Below, in pieces: positions 11,313 to 25,694 of a stretch of 27,192 nucleotides of DNA. The stretch lies in the IMG/VR virus record IMGVR_UViG_3300023174_000554, positions 1 to 27,192 of that record, one strand, 5' to 3'. The stretch's first letter is position 1. Every line of letters begins with the position of its first letter. The notes below the pieces were generated by a model. It did not search any database. It saw only the letters and a list, made by a program, of their open reading frames with translations, and was not told the DNA's origin. The stretch comes from a virus. Made by a program: the position numbers and the translations under genes.

Positions 11313-11318
11313 TGTCAA
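11313..11318 (-). promoter_or_regulatory. TTGACA start-associated motif (gene at 11299)
   Basis: It lies 13 bases before the ATG and contains the TGA stop codon of the GT9-like gene. A second copy at 11281-11286, inside codons 5-6 of the same gene, is the only copy in the window not before a start. Confidence 0.45.
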
Positions 11319-11986
11319 TCAGCTTTTATAAGTCCGTCAAAGTCCCAAACATTATCGGCCTCAAACCCATTTCTTTGAGGGAAAAACATCGTTTCTTTCC
11401 CCTGCCTAACTGCGGAAGCCAATATCATTGGCGAACTATTGATTCCCCAGAAATTCTCTGCCCCCCGGATAGCCCTTGCCATCTCCGCAACGCTTGGAGC
11501 CGTGTAGGTGTCTAGCCCTTGAATCTTAATATCTGGCGGAGTTAGCACATAGAAGTTGTCTTTCCCAAGTTGTTGCCTTGCGTCCTTAATGATTAAAAGA
11601 GGATTGCGGTAGTCGCTTTGGCTTGCTCCAAATGGAGCAACTAGATTGTATGTTTCTGGAAGTCCTTTTGCTGGCTTTTCGTCTAGCTTATCAAGAATAA
11701 TCTTTGTCTTTTCTGCATCCTTGATTTCTGGGCGATCATAAACAAAATCGTGCCAAGGCTTACGGCTTGCCCTAAAAGCATCGTAACGATTAGGCCAAAT
11801 CTGCAAGTCTATTTGATCGCCTTGGTTGCCTTTCTTGCAATAGGATACCATTTCAAAAACACCCTCGTATTGATCATAGCAATCAATAAAAACTTCATTC
11901 CCACGATCTGCCAATAACTTTGCGGCTGGCAAGCACCGAAGCACATCCCCTAGCCTTTCTTTATATATGATAGTTTTAGCAGTCAT
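11315..11986 (-). CDS. GT9/heptosyltransferase-like glycosyltransferase (short)
   Basis: 223 residues from the ATG at 11986, which overlaps the end of the upstream gene. The N-terminus ends a strand with RLGDVLRCLPAAKLLADRG, close to the 'xxGDxLxxLPxxxxLxxxxxxxV' opening of ADP-heptose:LPS heptosyltransferases (GT-B fold). A C-terminal segment ENFWGINSSPMILASAVRQG resembles the 'xxGxxSxxxHLAxAxxxP' sugar-nucleotide site of that family, with the usual His replaced. GT9 enzymes normally have about 320-350 residues, so this is a shortened form that may lack part of the N-terminal domain. It probably transfers a sugar to a glycan or protein. Acceptor and donor are unknown. Confidence 0.6.
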   Translation of the reverse strand: MTAKTIIYKERLGDVLRCLPAAKLLADRGNEVFIDCYDQYEGVFEMVSYCKKGNQGDQIDLQIWPNRYDAFRASRKPWHDFVYDRPEIKDAEKTKIILDKLDEKPAKGLPETYNLVAPFGASQSDYRNPLLIIKDARQQLGKDNFYVLTPPDIKIQGLDTYTAPSVAEMARAIRGAENFWGINSSPMILASAVRQGKETMFFPQRNGFEADNVWDFDGLIKAD

Positions 11987-12743
11987 CAGCAACGCTTTTA
12001 TCTGCTATAAATGGCATATAATCTGCAAGCCTTACCGGCCCCTGTGTTTCTTGTAGCTTTTCCCATCCCTCTACAAGCCCTTTATATCCATAGAAATCTT
12101 CTTTAAATTGCACCTGTTCTTTTGTTGCGTATGCAAAATGTTCAAAGGTTAAACCCCATGCCTCGGTCATTCCTCTTGGAATCATAAGTCCATTTACATT
12201 TAGCTTGGGAGGTTCATGACTTACAAACTCAATGCCTTTACCCCACTTCCAAGCTCTAAACCATTCATACCAGTTCGACCCAAAACCCTGTTTTGTTACA
12301 ACTTTTTTGTTTTGCCCAACATAATAATTGCAATGGAACTGCATAGCTCGCCCTTCCTCGCACCCTTTTAAATGTCCATAAATTGCGTCTATCTGATCTG
12401 CTCTCCACATTTCATCTGCATCCACTTCCATAACCACACCCTTTTCTACTCCATGCAAAGCCTCCTTAATCATTTCTAATTTTCCTGCAAATGGTTTTGC
12501 TTGCCAATATACTGAAACATTCGGCTGGTTAATACTATTTAGGTATTCGTGTGTTCCATCCACGCTTACGAAATTCTTGTGGTATTTTTCTGGAACTTGC
12601 TTGCACCAGCGGGTGCATCCCAGAGGTTCTGAAACTCCCTCTACAATACGCCATTGCCAAGGAATCTTTAGCTTCTTGAACTCATCGAGATGCCGATTGA
12701 TATAGGGCATCCCATTAAGAACGATGGTAAAGATTGTTAGCAC
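11976..12743 (-). CDS. GT-A type glycosyltransferase
   Basis: 255 residues. A DxD-type metal-binding motif sits in VVMEVDADEMW (Asp108, Asp110), after a Rossmann-like N-terminus (MLTIFTIVLNGMPYINRHLD) in the style of family-2 transferases. The second half has several Trp and Tyr (GSNWYEWFRAWKWGKG), which may form an acceptor site. The start is GTG at 12743, seven bases before the upstream stop, so the genes overlap. It is likely to transfer a sugar from a nucleotide donor to a glycan or protein. The target is unknown. Confidence 0.75.
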   Translation of the reverse strand: MLTIFTIVLNGMPYINRHLDEFKKLKIPWQWRIVEGVSEPLGCTRWCKQVPEKYHKNFVSVDGTHEYLNSINQPNVSVYWQAKPFAGKLEMIKEALHGVEKGVVMEVDADEMWRADQIDAIYGHLKGCEEGRAMQFHCNYYVGQNKKVVTKQGFGSNWYEWFRAWKWGKGIEFVSHEPPKLNVNGLMIPRGMTEAWGLTFEHFAYATKEQVQFKEDFYGYKGLVEGWEKLQETQGPVRLADYMPFIADKSVADDC

Positions 12744-13348
12744 AATTCAAAAATGGCGGCACCATTTCGCACCGACCAATCCTCCCAAAGCAATTTTCCA
12801 AATAGGCTTAACTTATGATAGTTTTTCCAGTTTTTAATGTCGTTGGTGTCGTCTAATGCTATAATTGTTTTCTTTGCCAAGAACGGCCTAACACAACGAA
12901 GTTCTGCTTCTCCAGAAAAAGGAGAACCATCAATAAGCACAAAATCAAAATTCACATTATATTTAAAGTTAATATCTTCGATTGAATTAGTCTGATATGA
13001 TTTAGCAGTTTCAACACACTCATCATGCCATCCTAAAACCATTTGTAGTGGGTATTGATTAAGGTTGGTTTTAGTTGTGCGATAGAACTCTGCAACATCT
13101 TGTTTATTCATCCATAAATCAGACACAACTGCTGTTCCTTGCACAGATACGCCACCCTTTGCCTCTAAATTCATGCGATGACGCCCAATCCGATCTGGAT
13201 GGTTTTCAATAGAAAAGAGTTTATCTGTTAGAATGCATTGAGTGGAACCGTCTCCAGTTCCGCCGCCAATCTCTAGCCCAATACCAAGACCCTTGGTATA
13301 TTTTGCCAATGCTTCACCAAATGAATCGTTAATGGTTACTTCTTGCAT
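12737..13348 (-). CDS. SAM-dependent methyltransferase
   Basis: 203 residues with the class I SAM fold: motif I LGIGLEIGGGTGDGST (residues about 20-35), an acidic residue at the end of the next strand (SIENHPDR) that would bind the ribose, and FDFVLIDGSPFSGEAEL further on, typical of O-methyltransferases of the Methyltransf_24 group. C-terminal residues include TIIALDDTND. It lies between two glycosyltransferases, so methylation of a sugar is plausible. The ATG at 13348 has AGAGGAAA 7-9 bases upstream, a good SD. It overlaps the upstream gene by 13 bases. Confidence 0.8.
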   Translation of the reverse strand: MQEVTINDSFGEALAKYTKGLGIGLEIGGGTGDGSTQCILTDKLFSIENHPDRIGRHRMNLEAKGGVSVQGTAVVSDLWMNKQDVAEFYRTTKTNLNQYPLQMVLGWHDECVETAKSYQTNSIEDINFKYNVNFDFVLIDGSPFSGEAELRCVRPFLAKKTIIALDDTNDIKNWKNYHKLSLFGKLLWEDWSVRNGAAIFELC

Positions 13349-13563
13349 TTAATCTTTTCCTCTAAAGCCTTGCGAATAACATAGGCAATCACAGCTTCTT
13401 TATCATGTTTTAACGCCATCATACCAGCTTTAAATAAAGCATTTTCACACTTCTCTTCATAACTAACATCTACTTCAACCATCTTTGGGGCTTTCCTAGC
13501 CTTTCCAAAGATAAGACTTCCAAGGTCTTTTTTACGCCCAATTATTTGCTTTGCGGTTTTCAT
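13336..13563 (-). CDS. Small basic protein, unrecognised
   Basis: 75 residues from an ATG at 13563 that lies inside the end of the long glycosyltransferase gene (32 bases shared), with AAGG about 7 bases upstream. It begins MKTAKQIIGRKKDLGSLIFG, is followed by a Lys-rich stretch, and ends in a helix (DKEAVIAYVIRKALEEKIK). It looks like a small helical accessory protein. The frame also stays open upstream, but that part is antisense-like and overlaps the glycosyltransferase, so I do not include it. Function is unknown. Confidence 0.6.
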   Translation of the reverse strand: MKTAKQIIGRKKDLGSLIFGKARKAPKMVEVDVSYEEKCENALFKAGMMALKHDKEAVIAYVIRKALEEKIKCKK

Positions 13564-15184
13564 AGATGGCCTTGCCTTTTTCGTAAAACTCTGGCTTGTT
13601 GTGATTTTTAAGCTGTTCGTCTGGTTTGCCTTTTGTGAACATTGGGTTTTCATGCTTAAACTGAATGTGCTTTGCCTCAATAACCACCCCATCGGCATAG
13701 GCTCTCTCGGTATGCTCATTGTCTGAATAGATGCCGTCTGATTCTTGATAGTCTGGATGGAACATGTAACCCTGCTTGTTTAGCCTAGATTGAGTTAGAA
13801 TAGCCATACAAAGCAGTTTGTCTTGGCGAAGCCCATCTGATACTGCCAGCACTTTCTCGGCCTTTGTGTCGCCAATAGCGTTCAAAATTAGGGCATCCCA
13901 ATGCTTGCAAGGCGACCAATCATCGCTCATCTGGATAATTACATCCCCCTTGGCGTGTTTTGACCCCTCGTTCCAAGCGTTAATGATTCCTCCGGGGTTG
14001 CACCTAATAGCTTGGTGCGGGGTGTAGTCCACCTTCTCATCGTGATCTACCGCAAAAATCCATTGAATCTCTAATGGCTTTTGGGCAAGTGAAAGCCATT
14101 GATAACGCCTCTGCCAAGCTAGTTGCGGTCTGCCTCTGGTTGCGTGAACCAAAGTGATTTTAGGAGTCGGCCACATCTTGAGCATCTTCTCGGATTCTTC
14201 GGTGTTTCCAACGCACACGCAAGCGATCTGGTAAAGGTCTAGGGTTTTCCAGTCATAGACATCCTCGACTTGATTCCAGTAGTGAGTTTTTGGCCTATGC
14301 AGGGTCATCGCACTTCTACTAGACGCATAAGCCTTGTTCCATTGTCCACGGCTGGCATATTCCATCGCCGTGTAATAGTGTGCTTCTCTGCGGTCTGGTT
14401 GAAGCGTGATTGCTTGCCCCAACCACTTTAGCCTTTCGTCTTTCCCTGTGCATCGTCCCAAGTTGCAAAGCACATCGTAGCGGAGCGTATCATCCAGTTC
14501 TGGGAACATCAAAGCTCTTTTGCTGTAATCAATGCAACGCTCGACTTGGTTGGATAGGTAGGCTTCTTGAGCCGTGTAATAAAGTGAATTGGGTGCTGGT
14601 TCGAGGGTATCTGCCAAGATGCGAAAGTTCCTATCAGCACTTGTCTGCTTGTATCCGTGGGGCTTGTGGATTCTGAAAGTGTGATCTACGGCCACCAGCT
14701 TATCTGGTTCACTTGCCACAAGCATTTCGTGAACCCGGTTCCTCCAGCGGCACTTACCCTTCTTGCTGAAAGTTTCTCGAAGCGGTTTGAGTCCGGCGTT
14801 TGCCACATCGTAACGCATCGCAACCAACCACTTGTCTTGCTTCTCTGCTTCGTCCAAAGCTCGATCAATCGCATCCTCGCATCCCTCTGCCATCACATCA
14901 TCGGCATCCACCCAAGCCGCCCACTCGCACGAACAATTATCTAATGCCAAATTACGAGCCTCCGCAAAATCGTCAATGTGGTTCCAATCAGTTCGTTTAT
15001 TTTTGTAGTGAACGACCTTCGCTCCAAAGCTCTTGCAAATTTCCTCTGTCTTGTCCGGAGTCTGGTTTCCCCTAGCGATTGCAACAACAAACTCCTTCGC
15101 AATGGGCTTGAAACTTTCCAAGCATCTACCAATGTATTCTTCTTCATTTCCGGCTATGAGATAAATTGATAGGTCGTGTTTCAT
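13532..15184 (-). CDS. Two-domain glycosyltransferase with TPR-like middle
   Basis: 550 residues. The N-terminal third is a family-2 GT-A domain: an opening strand SIYLIAGNEEEYIGRCLESF and a DxD motif in WVDADDVM (about residues 91-98). The middle (about 200-330) contains helix pairs typical of TPR arrays (YYTAQEAYLSNQVERCIDYS, and EAHYYTAMEYASRGQWNKAY). The last third opens with ITLVHATRGRPQLAWQRR and has IIQMSDDW near residue 415, a second GT-A-type domain with its own Asp-Asp. One chain could add two sugars in series, with the TPR region holding a partner or acceptor. It starts the modification cassette and is preceded by the GAAATCCT motif without a clear SD. Confidence 0.8.
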   Translation of the reverse strand: MKHDLSIYLIAGNEEEYIGRCLESFKPIAKEFVVAIARGNQTPDKTEEICKSFGAKVVHYKNKRTDWNHIDDFAEARNLALDNCSCEWAAWVDADDVMAEGCEDAIDRALDEAEKQDKWLVAMRYDVANAGLKPLRETFSKKGKCRWRNRVHEMLVASEPDKLVAVDHTFRIHKPHGYKQTSADRNFRILADTLEPAPNSLYYTAQEAYLSNQVERCIDYSKRALMFPELDDTLRYDVLCNLGRCTGKDERLKWLGQAITLQPDRREAHYYTAMEYASRGQWNKAYASSRSAMTLHRPKTHYWNQVEDVYDWKTLDLYQIACVCVGNTEESEKMLKMWPTPKITLVHATRGRPQLAWQRRYQWLSLAQKPLEIQWIFAVDHDEKVDYTPHQAIRCNPGGIINAWNEGSKHAKGDVIIQMSDDWSPCKHWDALILNAIGDTKAEKVLAVSDGLRQDKLLCMAILTQSRLNKQGYMFHPDYQESDGIYSDNEHTERAYADGVVIEAKHIQFKHENPMFTKGKPDEQLKNHNKPEFYEKGKAIYENRKANNWA

Positions 15185-16060: not shown

Positions 16061-16786
16061 TTAAAAGGGATAGGTCTTTCCAGCCCCAGCGTTGTAAAGA
16101 GATGTGATTTCTGCGCCAGTTAAGGCTCGACTCCAAGCTCCATATTCGCAAATGCTGTAATCTCCTTGTGCATCATCACCAGCAGAATTTGCACCTATTT
16201 CTAGTCCAACTCCGCTTCTTGCCGATCCCTCACCTCCATCAGTAATATATAAAGAATTATTGATATACCAATTTAATCCAGATGAATCTTGAGTTATGCA
16301 AATATGATACCAGCTTCCATAGCTCCATGCATAAAACTGACCATAATTATTTGCAGGATTGCTTGAATAAAGCCAACCACCAGATTTTTGATTTGAATCA
16401 AATTCAACTAAAGCAACGACTGTTCCAGAATTTGTTCCAGAAACATAAATAGATGGAAACTCTCCAATCGAATTATCTGTAATTATTTTAAGCCAAAATG
16501 AAATTGTCCAAGAATTTGGAAGTGAAAAATCTGTTTTTCTTAAATATGTTCCATTATAATTAAATCTGCTTGCGTTTGTTATTTTGCCAGATTCTATTGT
16601 AATGTTTGAACTAGGGCCGTTTGCGACTGAAAGCGTATTCCCATTCCCACTTGAATCTAGCCAGCTATTTGTGTTGAGCTTCCAGTAGGCTAGTAATCCA
16701 GTAAGTAGGTCGATCGGCGTTGATGCTATTGTGGCAGAAATTATTCTGCCTTGCACCAAGGAACGGCCATAACCGAACCTAGGCAT
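16061..16786 (-). CDS. LamG/concanavalin-like domain virion protein
   Basis: 241 residues. From about residue 28 to the end it follows the LamG-like (Laminin_G_3) pattern: LLAYWKLN and WLDSSGNGNTL, the 'WTISFWLK' strand, 'SWYHICITQD' and 'LNWYINNSLY' strands, and the closing 'YGAWSRALTGAEITSLYNAG'. This domain folds as a jelly roll and binds carbohydrates or proteins. In phages it is often found on head fibres, decoration proteins or tail tips. The first 27 residues are a basic N-terminus, perhaps for attachment to the virion. It lies just after the capsid terminator, so it is more likely a head or neck appendage than a tail-tip protein. SD GGAG lies about 8 bases before the ATG. Confidence 0.82.
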   Translation of the reverse strand: MPRFGYGRSLVQGRIISATIASTPIDLLTGLLAYWKLNTNSWLDSSGNGNTLSVANGPSSNITIESGKITNASRFNYNGTYLRKTDFSLPNSWTISFWLKIITDNSIGEFPSIYVSGTNSGTVVALVEFDSNQKSGGWLYSSNPANNYGQFYAWSYGSWYHICITQDSSGLNWYINNSLYITDGGEGSARSGVGLEIGANSAGDDAQGDYSICEYGAWSRALTGAEITSLYNAGAGKTYPF

Positions 16787-17168: not shown

Positions 17169-18137
17169 TTAGCTATATTGAGTGGTGATACGAACACCAG
17201 CATTAGCGTCAATGATCTTCTCTGCGGTGTTCATGCGAACACGGAGAACATTGCTACGGCGGGCTTCATCACGATAGCTTTCAGAAACAAAGCCACCCGG
17301 AGCATCATCAGACCAAACCAAGGTGCGACCCAAACCACCAGCGGTGAACTGCCCACTAGAGATATTGGCAACAATCAATTTGCTGTCCGGAACAATGAAG
17401 GAACCAGAATAGCTCTTGTTTTTGTTGGCAGTATTGTAAGCGGCCCGACCAACCAGCACCTTATCAACACCAAACGCCTGTGCAATCTGGCTTTCATCCA
17501 GCAAGCGACCACCAGTATTGGAAACCGTTCCATAAAACTGATTTTGCAGGAGGGTTGAGCGGCGGATACGTTCATAAACATTGGCAGACATAACGACTGC
17601 ATTTGCTTCGTATCCAAGTTTATTCAAGGCCAATTTGCCAGCGGCCACGTCAGCAGGGGCATTGATAGTGGCAAGGTTGGCTTCTGTATAGGCGATGCTA
17701 CCAGTTGCAGTTAAATCAGCCGTGGTGAATGGAGTAGTGGTTGCAAACAACAAGTCAGCAACACGCTTCTCATGGGACAGCTTCACCTGACGGAGCAAAA
17801 ACTTTGCAGTTTCGGCCTCGATGGCGAAGAAGCGGCTAGCGTCTGACCGGAAAGAATCATCCAACAATTCTTCGAGTCCCGTTTCCACGCAATCATAGGT
17901 ATCAGAGGTGAATTTGCGAACAGCACGAGCGTATTCAGCGCCAGCATTACGCTTGGCCGCATCAGCATTCAACAGATCGGCATCAGCCGTCTGAACCTTC
18001 AGATAAACACCACTTTTTGCCGAAACAGGCAAGAGAGGCATGACTTCTGCACCAATCATTCCAATTTGTGCAGGGGCTTCGATCAACGCTTGGTTGATAT
18101 CGGCCCGAATAGTTGTTCCGCCACTAATAAAACTCAT
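17169..18137 (-). CDS. Major capsid protein (HK97 fold, lambda-E-like)
   Basis: 322 residues, close to lambda gpE (341). The opening part places LIEAPAQIGMIGAEVMPLLPVSAKSG, in two pieces, before a strand with GVYLKVQTADADLL. This is the usual start of the family: an N-arm, then 'A..vfP...V...sg.Y'. A spine helix follows (FFAIEAETAKFLLRQVK), then the P-domain and a C-terminal 'WSDDAPGGFVSESYRDEARR' type stretch. Order protease/scaffold, decoration protein, capsid matches lambda. No cleavage site at the N-terminus is evident. The next downstream element is a strong terminator. Leader with AAAGAAAGA, no perfect SD. Confidence 0.88.
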   Translation of the reverse strand: MSFISGGTTIRADINQALIEAPAQIGMIGAEVMPLLPVSAKSGVYLKVQTADADLLNADAAKRNAGAEYARAVRKFTSDTYDCVETGLEELLDDSFRSDASRFFAIEAETAKFLLRQVKLSHEKRVADLLFATTTPFTTADLTATGSIAYTEANLATINAPADVAAGKLALNKLGYEANAVVMSANVYERIRRSTLLQNQFYGTVSNTGGRLLDESQIAQAFGVDKVLVGRAAYNTANKNKSYSGSFIVPDSKLIVANISSGQFTAGGLGRTLVWSDDAPGGFVSESYRDEARRSNVLRVRMNTAEKIIDANAGVRITTQYS

Positions 18138-18555: not shown

Positions 18556-18954
18556 TTAGATTTTAGTAATGCCACGGCTTTTGGCCTCGGCATATTCTTG
18601 GGGGTTTGAGAGCATCACGGCTTGCATAGCCTTGAGTTTCGAATTGCTGTAATCGCTGTGGGCGGCTACGAGTTCTTCAAAAGTTTTGGGTTCGACCTTT
18701 GCAGGTGCTTCAACAACAGGGGAAGCAGAGATGGGCTTAATGCCAAATTCAGTTAGAACGGCTTTGAGCTTTTCGGCCATCTGGCTTTCGTCCTTCTTGA
18801 CCTTATCTTCGGGCGAAGGAACATCAGAAACAGGCTTTCCCTCTGCCGAATCTTCGGCTTGGTCTGCGGCTTCATCAGCGGGTTTCATGAGGGCTTCGAG
18901 AGCCTCCAAGCGAGCCTTCATCTGGCTCAATTCATCCATGTAGTTCTTTTCCAT
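18556..18954 (-). CDS. Nested scaffold protein (in-frame internal start)
   Basis: 132 residues identical to the C-terminus of the protease. The ATG at 18954 is preceded by AAAAAAGGAGATAAAACT, with AAGGAG seven bases before the start, the best SD in the head region and far better than that of the full-length gene. It starts MEKNYMDELSQMKARLEALE, a coiled coil, then an Ala/Asp/Glu-rich linker and a helical end. In lambda, Nu3 scaffold starts inside the C protease gene in the same way. The frame is seen and the analogy is known; expression itself is inferred. Confidence 0.8.
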   Translation of the reverse strand: MEKNYMDELSQMKARLEALEALMKPADEAADQAEDSAEGKPVSDVPSPEDKVKKDESQMAEKLKAVLTEFGIKPISASPVVEAPAKVEPKTFEELVAAHSDYSNSKLKAMQAVMLSNPQEYAEAKSRGITKI

Positions 18955-19764
18955 AGTTTTATCTCCTTTTTTGTCAAGTATTGGGTCGCTCTCGACAATT
19001 GCTTGTTTAATATCAGAGGGAATACTTTGCCCCCCTGCATTATATCCCAAATTTTCTTCAGCTTTAACACAAGAGCCGGGCTCATAGGGTGCAACACCCT
19101 TTGCCGGCTTGTATCCTTCCCAACATCTAAATTTTGTTCCAACAGCAAAAACAAGCATTTCAGATTCATTGCTTTGAAAGTCTCTAAACTTTTCATTGCT
19201 TGCTGGACTAGAAACCAAATCAGCAGATTCAATCCTTTGCGGGCGGATGTAATCCTTGCCTCCAATGGTTTCTGATTCATTCATAAAAGCCAAGCTAACT
19301 CCGAATTGGTCTGGTGCTTCATTTGCCATTTCCTTGACCAAGGCATAATGAGGGGAACTTTTAAGAAGATGAAGATCGGCCAATAATTTATCACCCTCAA
19401 TGCGAGGGTTTCTGGCAAATCCCAAAACCGCATCTAAACCGCTTCCGTGATTCATCTTAACTTTCACGCCATTGGGAGCCTTCGACATTAGTTCATAGGC
19501 TTTTTCAAGAGAGGTTTTATCAATAAACAAATCATGACCCCTAGCTTCCCCTTGGCTTAAAATATAGACATTGGGAATAATGGTCGAATCTTCTTCAAGC
19601 CTAGCTTCTTTGCGTTGGTTTTTCTTTGCATCCCTATAAGTCTGATAAGCAACTGCAACCCTTTGTTTCTCATCTGGAAAGTCTTTTACAGCAGTTGTAT
19701 GACCCATGAAACGACCAACAAAGTCTTTGCTTTTCTCGCCTTTTTTAGGTGTGAGTAGGGGCAT
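18556..19764 (-). CDS. Prohead maturation protease fused to scaffold
   Basis: 402 residues. Residues 1-50 are a Lys/Gln/Arg-rich helical module (DFVGRFM, FPDEKQRVAVAY). From about 60 to 195 is a phage prohead serine protease domain, with His106 in KMNHGSG, Ser157 in FGVSLAF and Asp182 in ESADLVSSPA as the likely catalytic triad. A short Cys module (CWEGYKPAKGVAPYEPGSC, 214-232) follows. The last 130 residues are a Glu/Ala/Lys-rich coiled coil, a typical internal scaffold. Lambda C and Nu3 are arranged the same way. An internal start at 18954 can produce the scaffold alone. The gene starts at the ATG at 19764, with no clear SD. Confidence 0.85.
   Translation of the reverse strand: MPLLTPKKGEKSKDFVGRFMGHTTAVKDFPDEKQRVAVAYQTYRDAKKNQRKEARLEEDSTIIPNVYILSQGEARGHDLFIDKTSLEKAYELMSKAPNGVKVKMNHGSGLDAVLGFARNPRIEGDKLLADLHLLKSSPHYALVKEMANEAPDQFGVSLAFMNESETIGGKDYIRPQRIESADLVSSPASNEKFRDFQSNESEMLVFAVGTKFRCWEGYKPAKGVAPYEPGSCVKAEENLGYNAGGQSIPSDIKQAIVESDPILDKKGDKTMEKNYMDELSQMKARLEALEALMKPADEAADQAEDSAEGKPVSDVPSPEDKVKKDESQMAEKLKAVLTEFGIKPISASPVVEAPAKVEPKTFEELVAAHSDYSNSKLKAMQAVMLSNPQEYAEAKSRGITKI
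18972..18977 (-). promoter_or_regulatory. TTGACA start-associated motif at the internal scaffold start
   Basis: It lies 17 bases before the scaffold ATG, inside the protease reading frame (codons for Leu-Asp-Lys). Its presence here, within coding sequence, supports both the motif and the internal start. Confidence 0.55.
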
Positions 19765-19768
19765 ATTA

Positions 19769-20146
19769 TTAAACTAGGGTTAAAAGATACTTTAGCTGAT
19801 TTACATTTCCAAGAATCTCATCTCGGATATTCAATAAGTCTGTATCACCTTCATTTAGATAGCTTGGTATTTCTTCTGATAAGAATGAAATGAAGTCATC
19901 ATTATACTCACTAAAGGAATCGGAGTAGTTATCTAGGCTAATATCAAAAGTAGAAGCAGAAAAGATTCGGCCATACTTGCCCATGAAAGTTTCAATAAAC
20001 TCATCAATGTTTTCTGTAAGAGATTCATAGATTTCACCAAAACTTTTGTGCTGGCTATAACTCTTTGTCTGCCAATGAAATATCTTGTATTGATTCTGAT
20101 ATGTCAGAAAGGTCGTTAAAATTGTCTCGCCGTTGGCGTTTTCCAT
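19769..20146 (-). CDS. Dps/ferritin-like protein (DUF5856-like)
   Basis: 125 residues from the ATG at 20146, four bases after the stop of the preceding gene. The first helix ends FHWQTKSYSQHKSFG. Dps-type iron sites have His-Trp in helix A and His, then Asp and Glu in helix B. Here HW is followed by a second His, then NIDEFIE with Asp 15 and Glu 19 residues after that His, the spacing of Dps. The one other Dps ligand, an Asp four residues after the second His, is Gly. The C-terminal helix is like Dps helix D. DUF5856 proteins of phages and large viruses have the same HWQTKSYxxH pattern. Iron binding is therefore likely but not shown. A role in the virion is inferred from position. Confidence 0.65.
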   Translation of the reverse strand: MENANGETILTTFLTYQNQYKIFHWQTKSYSQHKSFGEIYESLTENIDEFIETFMGKYGRIFSASTFDISLDNYSDSFSEYNDDFISFLSEEIPSYLNEGDTDLLNIRDEILGNVNQLKYLLTLV

Positions 20147-20150
20147 AAGG

Positions 20151-20315
20151 TTATGGTTTCTTGTCAATTGAATCGTTACAAGTGCAATCTGGTTTGTCGC
20201 AAAGTTCTTCTTTGTCTGATTTCTTTGAATCTTTTATTCCATAAAGGTTTTTTAGATATTCGTCCATTGCCTCTTCATATTCTTTTTTATTAAAAAGTTC
20301 TTTTGGAATAATCAT
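20151..20315 (-). CDS. 54-residue Cys-containing protein
   Basis: A small frame from ATG at 20315, overlapping the last codon of the portal gene (ATGA). Residues 1-30 are an acidic helix (KEYEEAMDEYLKNLYG). The rest is charged, with three Cys in LCDKPDCTCND (39, 44, 46), a possible metal site. No family is recognised. It is coupled between the portal, which has a six-Cys module, and the ferritin-like gene, so a link to metal is possible. Confidence 0.6.
   Translation of the reverse strand: MIIPKELFNKKEYEEAMDEYLKNLYGIKDSKKSDKEELCDKPDCTCNDSIDKKP
20162..20167 (-). promoter_or_regulatory. TTGACA start-associated motif (ferritin-like gene)
   Basis: It lies 15 bases before the ATG at 20146, within the end of the 54-residue frame (Ile-Asp-Lys codons). 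No clear SD follows it. Confidence 0.45.
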
Positions 20316-23300
20316 TTTAGTTCCGGCCCTTTATAGATTTTATACATATCATAAACATCCTTATCAAATTTCTTGCCTGCGATATGACCAGCAAATGTTT
20401 CTGCCACAAACTCCATTGGATTTGTTTGAGCATATTCACTCACTTTACCGGCTATTGCTTTTCTTTGTTTTGCAATTTCTCCAGTTCCAAATTTGCCGGT
20501 CCTATATCCATCTGCCTCAATGTATCCAATTTGTTCTTTATGCAATACATGACCATATTCATGCACCAAAACATCGTTTGTTGTAAGCCAGCCTTCTTTT
20601 ACATTTCTTTCTGTTGATCGCATTAAACCATTTGTTGAATTATTATCAAATTTGCTATTATAAATAATAAGTTGTCTTTTGTGCTTCCCTGTTGTTATGT
20701 CTGCTTGCGCTCTTGCAAGCGCATAAGCATTTCTGTTTCTTCCTGTAATTCTTGTTGATTCAATAGCGCTAGGTGGAGGGATTTTGTAACCCTTTTCAGT
20801 AAGCTGATCATATTCTTTTTCTATTTTTGTAACAATTTCTGGGTCGTTTGGAAGATGCACCCATACTTTATTACCTTGACTTATTTTATCAGTAATTCTC
20901 TTTCTTTCTTCTTCGGATGAAGGTTTGTCTGAAACTTTTGGTGGTGCTGGCTTTTTAACTGATGGAACGGGTGGTGGTGTTGGAGTGGTCTTTGTTGATT
21001 GTGGTTTTGAGGTTGGGGGTGTAGGGGTTTGAGGTCTTAATTTTATCTTGGGCATTTTTTGTTTTTCGGAACCCTTTGATTTTGGCCTACCATATCCAAC
21101 AGCGCATGTGTTTTCTTTGTCGAACGTTCCATCCTCAATTTGTCCGCAAGGATTTAAAACCTCATCTGAACTAGTAGATGCAAATTCAGTTTCTACTTTT
21201 TTTTTATTGTCTGTAAGTGGTCCGCCTACAATCCAAGCATCGCAAGTTCTTTTTGCGGCACATTTGAAGTCAAAGATTTCACAATAGCCAAGGTTTCCAC
21301 CAATAGCGACTTCGTTGGCATCTTCTCCAATACCCTTCTTGATACATTCAAGAACTTTGCTGGTCTGATTAAAGGCGGCACAATTACCACAAAGCATTTT
21401 CTTTGCAGTTGCTACATCACCTTGAAATTCATTTGCCTTTGCTTTCCAATAAGCATCATTTGGCTCATTGGGGTTAGCAGGTCCGTAGTTGGCATCATCC
21501 ACAGCATTTTGCCTGTTGGCTAAATTGGTTTTAATGTCTTGGGTTGCAACTGGACAAGATGCAGGTTCTTCTAGCTTTTCATCCCTGCTATCCATTTGCT
21601 TAATAACTTTTCTAACCCAAGCGTAACCAGCATCACCGCCCCACCCATTCCATGCTTGCCATCCTTTGCCTTGCTCATCCCATCCAGCACCTTTCTTATC
21701 GACCTCATGGCGACTAAAGAATGAATGCATTCTGCGAATGGTGTCGGGTGAAAGTGCCTTGCCTGCGATCAAATCCCTAGCCCTTGCAATTCCAACTGCT
21801 GTCATTCCCCTCTGACTTGCTGGCTTTTTGCCTCTTACATCTAATGCCCTTTTTGCGGCTTCTCTTGCTCCCTGTGGAGGTGTGAAGTCAATGTCGGAAT
21901 ACTTTCCAAGTTCGCAAGCCTTGAGCATTCCAGAAATTAACATCTTAATGCTGTTATTATCTAGCTTGGAAAGTTCTTGTAAATTATCCTCAATTTGCCT
22001 TGCACCAGTTTTTTGCGTGTCCTCAGTTGCGCCTTTTTCAGTTGGTTCACGCTCCTCACCAACATCAATATCCCCATCACTTCCAGTTGTGCGACTAGAT
22101 GTATCCTGTTCTTTAATTGGGGGGACTACAACAACTGCATTTTCATCTTGTGGTTCATCTTGCATTTGCTCTGGTGCGGGTGAACCACCGCCCGGTGCTG
22201 GCATTGGTGCTGGTTTATTAATGTCTGAAATTGTCTCTGGCGGAACCCCATACTGCTCGGCAAGGTCTTTAACCAGTTTTGCCTCTAATGCTCTTTGACG
22301 CATTGAACTTTCAAAATCCAAGCCCTTCTCTGCATAAATAGAACTTGCTGTGGTTAGTCCGGCCTTAAACTCTGCAATGTTGGCTTGTGACTCACGGCCA
22401 AGGTCGATGGATACATTTGCACCAAAATTAAATACTCCCTTGGTGCTTTTGCTCCCAAGGTTGTTTGGAATTAATCCCCTAGCAACTCCATCTGCAATTA
22501 CGATATTCTTGAGCGGGCGAAGCACACGATCTTCCAAAAGTTTTTGGTATCTGCGGAAAGTTCGTCCAGCTTGTTGCATTTCAAGCCTAGCAGTTGGGCC
22601 GGACATTGAGGATGGGTCGACAGCAAATGAATAGGGAATGCCAACACCCATGCAAATGTTACGCAGAAGAATCCTATGAAATTCTGCAAATGCACCAGAA
22701 GGACGGCTTGGACCGTCAGGGAAAACGATGTCCTCATTGACTTCTAGGTAACTGATTTTACCCGGCTCAATAGTTTCCAGCTTAATGCCTTGATTGTCTG
22801 CGTTTAAGTCGTTGGTTAGAGTGGACAAATCAGAGGCATTATTATTGTTTCTTTTAACAATTCCAGCTTGCGAACTTGCCAGCTTTGCGGCCATCTTTTC
22901 AGAGGCAATGATTTCATACAAATCTACGCAATCATTAATGGCAGTATGGAAAGCAGAAATCCCTCGGTATTGGTCAATGCGAAGCGGGTCATAAAGGTGA
23001 AATGCTTGGCTTGCTGGAATTGTGGTTTGGAAAATGTATGCATTCCCAAATGTGCGAAGGTAAATGTCATAACCAGTAGGGGCGCCAGTTTCTTGGTCAA
23101 TATGAATACCGCTGATAAGATTAAGGCTTGTATATGTTCTGTTTGGGTCGCCAACTCTGTCTGCCTCAATTCCCTGTAATTTTAGATTTCCCTGTTGATC
23201 ACGCACGAGAACAAACAAAAAATCACCATCCCGAAGCATCGACATCATTGCAATCTGCATTAGGAAAGAACCTGTATTCCGTCCAGATAGGTCACATTTA

Positions 23301-23656
23301 TCCCACCATTCATTCCAATAAGCCTCTACATCTGTATTGACTCTGGGGCTTTCAGTTCTGGCTTGATATGAAATGTTGCCAGCACAATGACTAGCAAACT
23401 TCATTAGCAAACCACGAACCAATCCAACATTTTCTGCCAAATCCCTTGAACGCTTCAGCAACTCAACTCGATCATAATTTGATCTGAAACCTTCAGCACC
23501 AGACAGAGAAGACGGCCCGCGGCGCTGGCGATTATATTGAACTGCGTCATATTCAAAAGATGTAAGTTTTGCCCTAGAAACTAGGCGATCAACTGCGGCT
23601 TGCGGATTAACAAAGGCAATCGCCTTATCGAGAAAGTTCAGCCCAATCTTTTTCAC
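20312..23656 (-). CDS. Portal protein fused to Cys-rich module and C-terminal metallopeptidase-like domain
   Basis: 1114 residues, twice the usual portal length. Residues 1-480 are a lambda-gpB-type portal (clip and stem region near DGVARG, PFam Phage_portal_2-like). About 481-595 is a Pro/Glu-rich linker. About 596-690 is a helical module with MHSFFSRHEVDKKGAGWDEQ and a W-rich GWGGDAGYAW motif, found in many phage head proteins. About 750-810 holds six Cys (756, 759, 771, 792, 799, 805), a HiPIP-like or zinc module. CGxxxxGxFxxxNTCA (837-851) follows, then a Pro/Thr linker. About 915-1114 has VHEYGHVLH (His1032, Glu1033, His1036) and FVAETFA (Glu1086), a gluzincin-type HExxH...E site. It starts with GTG immediately after the gpW stop. 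Ends by overlapping the next gene. Confidence 0.88.
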   Translation of the reverse strand: MKKIGLNFLDKAIAFVNPQAAVDRLVSRAKLTSFEYDAVQYNRQRRGPSSLSGAEGFRSNYDRVELLKRSRDLAENVGLVRGLLMKFASHCAGNISYQARTESPRVNTDVEAYWNEWWDKCDLSGRNTGSFLMQIAMMSMLRDGDFLFVLVRDQQGNLKLQGIEADRVGDPNRTYTSLNLISGIHIDQETGAPTGYDIYLRTFGNAYIFQTTIPASQAFHLYDPLRIDQYRGISAFHTAINDCVDLYEIIASEKMAAKLASSQAGIVKRNNNNASDLSTLTNDLNADNQGIKLETIEPGKISYLEVNEDIVFPDGPSRPSGAFAEFHRILLRNICMGVGIPYSFAVDPSSMSGPTARLEMQQAGRTFRRYQKLLEDRVLRPLKNIVIADGVARGLIPNNLGSKSTKGVFNFGANVSIDLGRESQANIAEFKAGLTTASSIYAEKGLDFESSMRQRALEAKLVKDLAEQYGVPPETISDINKPAPMPAPGGGSPAPEQMQDEPQDENAVVVVPPIKEQDTSSRTTGSDGDIDVGEEREPTEKGATEDTQKTGARQIEDNLQELSKLDNNSIKMLISGMLKACELGKYSDIDFTPPQGAREAAKRALDVRGKKPASQRGMTAVGIARARDLIAGKALSPDTIRRMHSFFSRHEVDKKGAGWDEQGKGWQAWNGWGGDAGYAWVRKVIKQMDSRDEKLEEPASCPVATQDIKTNLANRQNAVDDANYGPANPNEPNDAYWKAKANEFQGDVATAKKMLCGNCAAFNQTSKVLECIKKGIGEDANEVAIGGNLGYCEIFDFKCAAKRTCDAWIVGGPLTDNKKKVETEFASTSSDEVLNPCGQIEDGTFDKENTCAVGYGRPKSKGSEKQKMPKIKLRPQTPTPPTSKPQSTKTTPTPPPVPSVKKPAPPKVSDKPSSEEERKRITDKISQGNKVWVHLPNDPEIVTKIEKEYDQLTEKGYKIPPPSAIESTRITGRNRNAYALARAQADITTGKHKRQLIIYNSKFDNNSTNGLMRSTERNVKEGWLTTNDVLVHEYGHVLHKEQIGYIEADGYRTGKFGTGEIAKQRKAIAGKVSEYAQTNPMEFVAETFAGHIAGKKFDKDVYDMYKIYKGPELK

Positions 23657-23914
23657 TTACGCCATTCCAATTGAACGAGCTGGACCGAATTTTGCATAGG
23701 TAGTTCTAATTCTTTGTCCAGTTCCAGATTGTATTGCAAGAGTTAATTCCGCAATAGTGTCGCGAACTTCACTTAAATTTGCCCTAGAAAAAGACCTTCC
23801 AGCAATGGAATAGCTTGAACCCGCCACCGCAATAGCTTCAAGACAGGTAACATACTTATCCCGTAAGGAAGTTAGGGTGGTTAGGGGTAGTCCAATGAAA
23901 TCACCCTTCGCCAT
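23657..23914 (-). CDS. gpW-like head-tail connector
   Basis: 85 residues from the ATG at 23914. The layout follows lambda gpW: a helix (LTSLRDKYVTCLEAIAVAG), a beta hairpin (SYSIAGRSFSRANLSEV), a second helix (VRDTIAELTLAIQSG) and a basic, flexible C-terminus (KFGPARS). gpW sits under the portal and closes the channel after packaging. It is between the large terminase and portal genes, exactly as in lambda. I chose 23914 over an in-frame ATG at 23929 because GAGG lies nine bases before 23914, and the first five residues of the longer form look like upstream coding sequence. It overlaps the terminase by 14 bases. Confidence 0.82.
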   Translation of the reverse strand: MAKGDFIGLPLTTLTSLRDKYVTCLEAIAVAGSSYSIAGRSFSRANLSEVRDTIAELTLAIQSGTGQRIRTTYAKFGPARSIGMA

Positions 23915-25694
23915 TATTCTCAACCTCATCTGTCAAACTTGCAGGGGAAATGTTCAATAGCTTGTGCAAACTTGCACCCACTATGTTCATGCATTCGCAA
24001 TCTAGCAAGTGATTATCCTTCCCTATTTGTTTCCATACCAACCTAGTTCTTCCCGTCATCGGGTTTTTGACTGAAACTTTTCTTTCTGCGTTAATGTGTT
24101 CCCTCCAAACTTGAGGAACATCGTCAGCAACAAACCCGTCAGACTTTAAAAGATTTGAAAGAATATCCTTAATCGTTGGATTAGACCAACGCCAAACAGG
24201 AGCCAATCGCCACTTCCAACCCTCTTTAGAACTTTTGACTCGACCCGAGAATGGGTCACCATTCATAATTCTAGCAAATGGTCTGGCAATTCTCTCTTGA
24301 TTGATAATTTCTGAAAAACTGGTTTTATCCGAACCAACAAGACCAAGCCAACCCATCTTGCAAATCATCTCATAGCATAATCTGGTTTGGTCTCCTGTAT
24401 CAATTAACACGCATCTAGGCTCAACTTTAAACTCTTCTGCCTTTGCTGATACATCACCCCAAGTTTCTAACCTTCCAGCCCAAACCATTCTTGATTTCCC
24501 TTCCTTGCTATATGCACGAACTAAAGCCCAAGTGTGGAAACCGCCAGATTCTTGCACGTCCACGGACATAATACACCTTTCACCCTCTCTGACTTCTCCC
24601 ATGTTGTAGCCTCCCGCCTTAATTTCAATCCTCTCTTGTTCATGCTCAAGCCAAGGTTCGGCCAAAATGCGATTAACAAAGTCTTGCAATCCAATAATAC
24701 CACTATGCTTATCCTGTAAGAACTTAACTGCTAGTGAACCAAATGTAACCCAAGGGGCGTAAAGCCCATTCAAATGATAGGATCGGCGTGCTGGTTCACC
24801 TTTTGGATTGGTTGCAACCCATTCCCCCCCACGAAGCATTGCTGTTTTCTGTCCATCTGTAATCTTTCCTTTGCAGTTCTCGCACTCATAATAAGCCGAT
24901 GACTTAACCAATTTGAAATCGTAAACTGCTTCTTCAAGTTTTGCGGCATCATCCCACTTAACCTGTCCCCAAATTAGTTTTTGCTTATGATTGCAATGTG
25001 GGCAAGGCACAAAGAAAAACCTCATGTCTCCTTTTTGCCATTCGCTCCAAATTGTAGATTCAGCAGTTGTCGGTGTAGATGTTGCGATAATCAAATGATT
25101 GGGATAAGTTGCAACTCGTGCCTCTGCCAACTGCAATGCTCCAGCTTCAGATTTGCTTGAACCCGCATCTGGGTATTTGTCCACCTCATCGAGCATTAGA
25201 AGTGATACCGACCTAGATGCAAGATTTGCGGGACTATTTGAACCTACAAACCAAAGCGACATTCTTTTAAAATGTTGCTCTAGTATTTTAATTTTGTCGG
25301 TGTTGTCTGGCTTTTCTTTTGCTAATGCTGGGCAATCATCCACCATCGGCAACCATCTAGTTTCAGAAAACGACCTAGCCAAAGCCTCTGATGGCATTAC
25401 CCAAAGACTAGGGCAAGGCCGTTCAGCAAGCCTATAAGCAAGACCAGCAAGAATTGTGGTTGTCTTGGATGTCTGCGCCCCCCATACCAAGGTAATTCTA
25501 CGAACTGAATCATCACCAAAAGCCTCAAGCGGCTCTTTTACATAGGGCGTAAGTTTTGTTGAGTATGCACCGGGAATATTTGTTACCCTAGCTGATAAAG
25601 TAAGATTTTTCTCTGCCCATTCTGGAATCGAGAGTTTTTCCCTTGGTTCAAAGATTGTTCGAGCAAATTCCTTAACATTTGCAATTTGATTCAT
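23901..25694 (-). CDS. Terminase large subunit, GpA type
   Basis: 597 residues, near the 640 of lambda gpA. A Walker-A-like loop is at 71-80 (WGAQTSKTTT) and Walker B at 165-172 (LLMLDEVD), the ATPase that drives DNA packaging. Next is a Zn-type pair, CPHC at about 230 and CENC at about 272, common in this family. The nuclease half carries Asp residues in MSVDVQESGGF and CVLIDTGDQT, the likely metal ligands for cutting concatemers. It begins with ATG at 25694, overlapping the HNH stop (ATGA). With an HNH gene and small terminase upstream, a cos-type enzyme is expected. Confidence 0.93.
   Translation of the reverse strand: MNQIANVKEFARTIFEPREKLSIPEWAEKNLTLSARVTNIPGAYSTKLTPYVKEPLEAFGDDSVRRITLVWGAQTSKTTTILAGLAYRLAERPCPSLWVMPSEALARSFSETRWLPMVDDCPALAKEKPDNTDKIKILEQHFKRMSLWFVGSNSPANLASRSVSLLMLDEVDKYPDAGSSKSEAGALQLAEARVATYPNHLIIATSTPTTAESTIWSEWQKGDMRFFFVPCPHCNHKQKLIWGQVKWDDAAKLEEAVYDFKLVKSSAYYECENCKGKITDGQKTAMLRGGEWVATNPKGEPARRSYHLNGLYAPWVTFGSLAVKFLQDKHSGIIGLQDFVNRILAEPWLEHEQERIEIKAGGYNMGEVREGERCIMSVDVQESGGFHTWALVRAYSKEGKSRMVWAGRLETWGDVSAKAEEFKVEPRCVLIDTGDQTRLCYEMICKMGWLGLVGSDKTSFSEIINQERIARPFARIMNGDPFSGRVKSSKEGWKWRLAPVWRWSNPTIKDILSNLLKSDGFVADDVPQVWREHINAERKVSVKNPMTGRTRLVWKQIGKDNHLLDCECMNIVGASLHKLLNISPASLTDEVENNGEG
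23931..23936 (-). promoter_or_regulatory. TTGACA start-associated motif (gpW-like gene)
   Basis: It lies 16 bases before the ATG at 23914, inside the terminase reading frame (Leu-Thr-Asp codons), directly before GATGAGG, the SD. Confidence 0.5.

Follow-up and report, generated by a model that had tools for sequence, protein, structure and literature searches.

A phage portal protein with an exchangeable C-terminal cassette carrying a predicted lethal-factor-type zincin

Head-borne enzymes of tailed phages

In the parts of the surveys of polyvalent proteins drawn on here (Iyer 2017, 2022; PMC5512222, PMC9503650), fusions of phage head proteins with enzymes comprise (i) portal or MuF domains joined to PBECR, 2H and InPase, (ii) Nudix domains joined to portal, MuF and prohead protease proteins, and (iii) ADP-ribosyltransferases (ARTs) in head contexts; zincins are a frequent component of polyvalent proteins, where they are assigned to processing or to effector functions. 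T4 Alt, a packaged ADP-ribosyltransferase, is described in the part of PMC5512222 consulted, and MuF polymorphic toxins have been tied to temperate phages (Jamet et al. 2017, PMC5576092). The locus analyzed here is a 27,192-base viral record from IMG/VR (IMGVR_UViG_3300023174_000554), referred to in its full length as the window, in which one open reading frame (ORF) encodes a portal protein ending in a predicted zinc metallopeptidase (zincin). Like a polyvalent protein, this ORF fuses a virion structural domain to an effector enzyme, and the domains are exchanged among relatives. The phages concerned form a large group, uncultured and mostly from freshwater, and the C-terminal region is read here, as the probable interpretation, as a polymorphic effector that is borne by the virion, attached to its portal, and delivered into the cell by injection during infection.

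Layout of the portal protein

The ORF occupies 20312-23656 on the minus strand, including the stop codon, starts with GTG and encodes 1114 amino acids. Its parts are listed below.

20315-23656, minus strand: whole ORF, portal plus appended modules, 1114 amino acids (translation; layout recurring on many independent contigs; stop codon at 20312-20314)
22217-23656, minus strand: portal core of the lambda gpB family, residues 1-480 (PF05136, phrog_21; relatives 89-98% identical bear other tails)
21902-22216, minus strand: acidic/Pro-rich linker, residues 481-585 (insertion site in relatives)
21557-21901, minus strand: W-rich module, residues 586-700 (profile match to phrog_2859)
21182-21556, minus strand: Cys module, residues 701-825, with seven conserved cysteines (40-row alignment)
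20150-21180, minus strand: exchanged cassette comprising tag, linker, zincin, stop codon and short spacer (no homology alignable with the related locus L157)
21095-21148, minus strand: Cys-bracketed tag CGQIEDGTFDKENTCAVG, residues 837-854 (pattern match)
20915-21094, minus strand: Pro/Thr/Lys-rich linker, residues 855-914 (translation)
20315-20914, minus strand: zincin metallopeptidase domain, residues 915-1114 (AlphaFold2 model, fold match, invariant residues, substitution rates)

An initial annotation of the window, which named no strand, had described a single unbroken frame of 1114 codons joining a lambda-B-like portal, a W-rich module and six cysteines. The frame is real, and both the portal and the W-rich module stand; the cysteine-rich module is present as well, but with seven near-invariant cysteines (701, 756, 759, 771, 792, 799 and 805) instead of six. 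PF05136 matches residues 60-371 (E-value 1.1e-51; 176.5 bits against a curated cut-off of 32.9; profile positions 20-354 of 354), phrog_21 matches residues 3-541 (E-value 2.8e-57), and phrog_2859 matches residues 582-725 (E-value 3e-26). The profile score above the curated cut-off and the site of the gene, beside the terminase and a head-tail adaptor and before the protease and capsid genes, identify the N-terminal region as a lambda-family portal. The unusual length of the protein is all that speaks for an assembly chimera joining two genes, an explanation left with practically no probability: the zincin ends the same portal, or the portal fragment held, in more than 50 loci, and the same architecture with conserved flanking genes recurs on many contigs of different metagenomes, which refutes it.

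Exchange of the C-terminal cassette

Relatives, designated by L and a number, were collected by scanning IMG/VR with the Cys module, the zincin alignment and the portal core, and the counts given are not population frequencies. In the sub-clade of the window, sampled by portal core alone, the constant part comprises the portal, the W module and the Cys module and measures 816-819 amino acids when free of inserts. Among the complete ORFs with a portal identity of at least 89%, the window included (n = 37), 13 carry a cassette and 24 carry none. The cassette is dispensable and not needed to build the head, since about two thirds of the closest relatives do without it. The tail-less relatives (L023, L045, L169 and others) stop right after the Cys module, and no recognized effector gene replaces the cassette.

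The cassettes found at this site comprise (i) zincins, in four groups, (ii) ART-like domains, in two groups, labeled from weak DRAT, ART and ADP-ribosyl matches, (iii) a ParB-like tail, read from the sequence of L014, and (iv) unknown domains, or the cassette is missing. Mapped on a tree of 116 portal cores, tail class must have switched 38 times or more, and cassettes differ even between phages with portals 92-98% identical. The portal proteins of L005 and L009 are identical, yet one ends in a zincin of type 3 and the other of type 1; those of L018 and L049 are likewise identical, and an insert is present in only one of them. Within a set of 95-98% identical portals, the window carries a type 1 zincin, L134 a diverged type 1 zincin (34% identical), L044 a type 2 and L002 a type 3 zincin, L004 an ART-like domain, L157 an unknown tail and L045 no tail at all.

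The DNA alignments delimit the exchanged unit. The window and L157 are 83% identical as far as the final codon of the Cys module; beyond it no alignment is possible until the following gene begins, where identity returns at 80%, whereas L002 and L169 display 94% identity on either side of a 1.7-kb cassette missing from L169. A 949-bp cassette between the W and Cys modules is present in L117 and absent from L033. Cassettes are exchanged en bloc between close relatives, and the flanking genes remain constant although the cassette varies. The protease that the initial annotation had placed at the portal vertex is present as a domain; it is, however, one allele of an exchangeable cassette, replaced or missing in many near-identical phages, and not a function of the portal as such.

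The zincin domain

A C-terminal metallopeptidase domain had been proposed from its HExxH motif, and rightly so: the catalytic residues are invariant and a zincin fold is predicted. The motif spans residues 1032-1036, and His1032, Glu1033, His1036, Glu1082 and Glu1086 are invariant in 40 aligned relatives. By profile alignment, Tyr1075 and Glu1082 fall on the residues of solved lethal-factor-type zincins that serve as the catalytic tyrosine and the third zinc ligand. The third metal ligand is probably Glu1082 and not Glu1086, the residue first suggested, which is invariant but aligns one helix turn off.

The AlphaFold2 model of residues 915-1114 is a confident zincin, with a mean predicted local distance difference test (pLDDT) of 95.2 and a predicted template modeling score (pTM) of 0.92. 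The closest solved structure is the zincin domain of lethal factor (Z-score 10.5 over 166 residues, 3.7 Å), Pro-Pro endopeptidases such as PPEP-1 reaching a Z-score of 7.8; the Foldseek E-values for the zincin matches are weak. Predicted viral structures matching the domain include phage minor capsid proteins and lethal-factor-like phage proteins. The match to PF07737 is marginal (E-value 0.029; 14.5 bits, below the cut-off of 27.4).

Pairwise ratios of nonsynonymous to synonymous substitution rates (dN/dS) among related zincins range from 0.03 to 0.31, which argues that the domain is kept functional; judged by these ratios, it is under purifying selection. This bears on the proposal that the tails are structural or decorative, acting as packing aids or decoys with enzyme folds reused for binding. 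The W and Cys modules are fixed and head-associated, and the tails may just fill head space; nevertheless, catalytic residues invariant in 40 diverse zincins, strongly purifying substitution and the swapping of several unrelated enzyme folds at one site make this proposal very improbable.

A close-relative scan queried with the window zincin alone gave no match, whereas the zincin family alignment recovered 79 loci from IMG/VR. Outside the portal group, zincin relatives form the C-terminal domain of (i) a MuF protein encoded by Halorubrum phage Hardycor1, (ii) the MuF proteins of L137, which also carries an ART domain, and L145, and (iii) the minor capsid protein of L151; a further relative lies on a DUF2213 protein in L139. 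In addition, L063:47-4752 holds three zincins, types 2 and 4 on the portal and a third on a W-module gene just downstream.

Zincins sharing one protein with other enzymes (L137, L063 and L037) would also suit a processing peptidase, one whose substrate in head maturation is its own portal tail or another head protein, or which releases domains once they have been injected, a role proposed by Iyer and colleagues for zincins in polyvalent proteins in the part of PMC5512222 consulted. In the cassettes described here, however, the zincin is mostly the sole enzyme and the last domain, near-identical portals carry ART-type or ParB-like cassettes without a zincin, and many phages carry neither. Because a maturation enzyme is expected to be constant, a zincin that varies or is missing speaks against such a role, which is regarded as unlikely.

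The Cys-bracketed tag

The cassette of the window contains a short segment enclosed by two cysteines, CGQIEDGTFDKENTCAVG, at residues 837-854, which the initial annotation had passed over. The pattern derived to search for it, C-G-x(2,7)-G-x-F-x(2,5)-[ND]-x-C-x(1,2)-G, matches within 200 residues upstream of 95 of the 95 recognized effector domains in the portal family and in 17 of the 19 unknown tails that measure 100 residues or more, compared with 7 of the 120 ORFs without a long tail (Fisher's exact test for tag and cassette, p = 3e-53, shared ancestry ignored). Shuffled proteins contain no match, and three matches occur among 1688 further reading frames from these loci. The breakpoints of the window/L157 and L002/L169 pairs fall just before the tag, so that tag and enzyme travel together. 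Both cysteines, the phenylalanine and the asparagine are kept in every cassette tag, letters that the search pattern itself demands; this requirement notwithstanding, the conservation argues against a neutral recombination scar. The tag may serve as a site of release, as a loop that responds to redox state or as a linker.

Scanning IMG/VR with a DNA version of the pattern returned at least 120 stretches. Outside the portal group, the 43 non-redundant tagged ORFs include, among the matches listed, six PF04860 portals and four PF05136 portals, six prohead proteases of PF04586, one PF14550 protein and two MuF proteins, together with several ART, ART-PolyVal and Zeta_toxin domains; several ORFs display two to four tags between domains. 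In L411:1516-10655, a PF04860 portal with an ART tail is followed by two large ORFs, with eight tags across the three neighboring genes. No Pfam match overlaps the tag in the portal-family proteins whose domain tables were examined, and the examined stretches of phiPsal1, DSL-LC01, CRP-831 and Hardycor1 contain no tag. A tblastn search of isolated phages with the 21-residue tag also gave no match, the query being too short or masked.

Taken in its general form, C-G-x(n)-G-x-F-x(3)-N-x-C-x-x-G, with 12, 13 or 16 residues between the cysteines, the tag could tentatively be seen as a general tailed-phage signal that marks effectors borne on head proteins (two portal families, MuF proteins and prohead proteases) and guides how they are released or delivered; the portals described here would then be one of its uses. 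Such a tag would make virion-borne effectors easy to recognize from sequence in any phage genome, even among the many tails that match no known family, and would render testable how enzymes borne on portal or MuF proteins get loose from the head.

Proposed mechanism

In the proposed mechanism, the conserved core of about 820 amino acids (portal, W head module and Cys module) would build the DNA-entry ring, and its end would take one of many exchangeable cassettes, each built of an enzyme joined through a linker to a Cys-bracketed tag; the enzyme of the window is a predicted zinc protease of the lethal-factor/PPEP type. Since the C-termini of portals point into the head, as many as twelve tails could be placed there, close to where the DNA exits. 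While bound to the portal an enzyme cannot get out, and cleavage would be needed for its release; the tail would be freed probably by a cut at or near the tag made by the phage maturation protease, the candidates for this step being the tag at the junction and the probable phage protease encoded two genes downstream. The freed zincin would then accompany the DNA into the bacterium and there cleave a host protein, probably a target in defense or takeover.

That the tail is cargo is suggested by the same zincin domain lying at the C-terminus of MuF proteins (L137, with an ART, and Hardycor1) and of the minor capsid protein of L151, and injection is suggested by the precedent of packaged and injected effectors such as T4 Alt and the portal/MuF-effector fusions. 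Among the options that the initial annotation had listed (cleavage of a host protein after injection, head maturation, or removal from the portal), injection of the protease is the best supported, but the protease is not a fixed function of the portal.

A conserved head protein with an exchangeable C-terminal enzyme, and with domains common to MuF proteins, would also fit a polymorphic toxin in the sense described for MuF, with a cassette directed against bacterial competitors or at the control of lysogeny. Temperate phages are the carriers to which MuF toxins have been linked (PMC5576092), whereas a tyrosine integrase (PF00589) was found in none of 20 and a serine recombinase (PF00239) in none of 24 long records of the group, which are possibly incomplete; these counts are suggestive of virulent rather than temperate phages. 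Furthermore, the gene after the cassette is a fixed one, and none that covaries with the cassette lies behind it. A toxin of this kind is accordingly held to be improbable.

Several points weigh against the injected effector itself: (i) the evidence is metagenome sequence, for the window as for its relatives; (ii) portals stay in the particle, and injection would thus require the cleavage proposed above; (iii) most close relatives are without any cassette, so that its benefit would be conditional; (iv) the prohead protease is assigned by position and by inspection, without a Pfam or PHROG match; and (v) other cassettes are called ART or ParB-like on weak matches or motifs. Should the injected-effector reading hold, an abundant group of phages would be varying a weapon positioned where DNA leaves the head, swapped as a cassette between near-identical phages, and would provide a natural near-isogenic series for asking what injected effectors do in apparently virulent phages.

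Conserved core and neighboring genes

The linker at residues 481-585 accommodates inserts of about 60 to 590 amino acids in relatives. The W module can be assigned as a head-assembly element from its relatives, a W-like segment beginning both the protease-capsid polyprotein of Roseobacter phage CRP-831 and the capsid maturation protease of phage DSL-LC01. A calponin match within it (residues 612-625; E-value 0.03, under the cut-off) was rejected. The Cys module is encoded by at least 599 IMG/VR stretches and is a stand-alone head gene in phage DSL-LC01, where it is annotated as a high-potential iron-sulfur protein (HiPIP). A Pfam search of the window protein gave no match for the module; the HiPIP identity was not accepted, given the lack of a Pfam match, a model pLDDT of 59 and no convincing PDB sequence match. 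A profile search relates the N-terminal half of the module to the SURP motif of splicing factor SF3A1 (E-value 0.05), a resemblance probably due to chance or convergence. The order of the modules differs among relatives, the Cys module preceding the W module in the L003 group and forming a separate downstream gene in others.

By portal and W module, the nearest isolated phages are Synechococcus S-CBS1/3 and Roseobacter CRP-8xx, at about 27-31% identity; unlike the window portal, that of CRP-831 stops at about 500 amino acids, the W module lying on the protease-capsid polyprotein. The single match to the portal in genome collections, a contig in an Akkermansia metagenome-assembled genome (34% identity, without a long tail), is uninformative on the host.

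The gene order comprises the terminase, the head-tail adaptor-like gene, the portal, the DUF5856 gene, the probable protease/scaffold, a small head gene and the major head protein, with the following coordinates.

23901-25694, minus strand: terminase large subunit, GpA type (PF05876, E-value 1e-63)
23657-23929, minus strand: head-tail adaptor-like gene (phrog_118, E-value 8e-9)
19769-20167, minus strand: DUF5856 gene, fixed downstream neighbor of the cassette in the window sub-clade (PF19174, E-value 1e-18; synteny)
18556-19764, minus strand: probable prohead protease and scaffold, candidate tail-releasing enzyme (position and sequence; position conserved)
17169-18137, minus strand: major head protein (phrog_1005, E-value 1e-35)

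The DUF5856 gene, between portal and protease, also matches a PHROG named starvation-inducible transcriptional regulator, possibly Dps-like. Pfam and PHROG searches with the probable protease/scaffold matched nothing; a Cys-bracketed segment, CWEGYKPAKGVAPYEPGSC, stands at its apparent protease/scaffold junction, and segments of the same kind occur in 27 frames of related loci. Farther downstream, a LamG/concanavalin-like protein (16061-16786, minus strand), judged by inspection, lies beside the capsid genes, and a block of glycosyltransferase-, methyltransferase- and heptosyltransferase-like genes, assigned likewise (11315-15184, minus strand; 225, 255, 203 and 550 amino acids), lies within the structural operon. 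The corresponding region of Pontimonas phage phiPsal1 comprises two glycosyltransferases and a methyltransferase.

Comparison with known systems

The initial annotation knew of no described portal with this layout. A portal-zincin fusion was indeed not met, nor a polymorphic portal clade or a Cys-bracketed tag, in the parts of PMC5512222 and PMC9503650 consulted, but portal-effector fusions are already described there. The words "linker" and "cysteine" were not found in the text of PMC5512222, and literature searches covering open-licence papers turned up neither the tag nor polymorphic portals. The kind of protein is already known, as portal-effector fusions and zincins in packaged phage proteins (Iyer 2017, 2022, as far as covered here). 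New, as far as the searches reach, are the placing of a zincin on a portal, the en-bloc exchange of cassettes within a clade of portals, and a tag that recurs.

Polyvalent proteins and portal-MuF fusions, in the same parts of the Iyer surveys, likewise combine head proteins with effector enzymes and are predicted to be packaged and injected. MuF polymorphic toxins resemble the window protein in a conserved head-associated N-terminus and an exchangeable C-terminal enzyme, MuF being a minor head protein near the portal; they differ in that the carrier here is the portal itself, with no MuF domain matched in the window protein by Pfam or PHROGs, and in that no integrase was detected. T4 Alt is alike in the proposed model, as an enzyme in the head that is injected with the DNA and acts early in infection, but is a free internal protein, whereas the enzyme of the window is a covalent part of the portal gene product. 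Finally, the lethal-factor/PPEP zincins (ATLF, M34) and the window zincin have in common the predicted fold, the HExxH motif and a tyrosine and a glutamate seven residues apart, at 13-16% identity and with marginal sequence similarity, the window domain differing in its carrier and, presumably, in its bacterial substrate.

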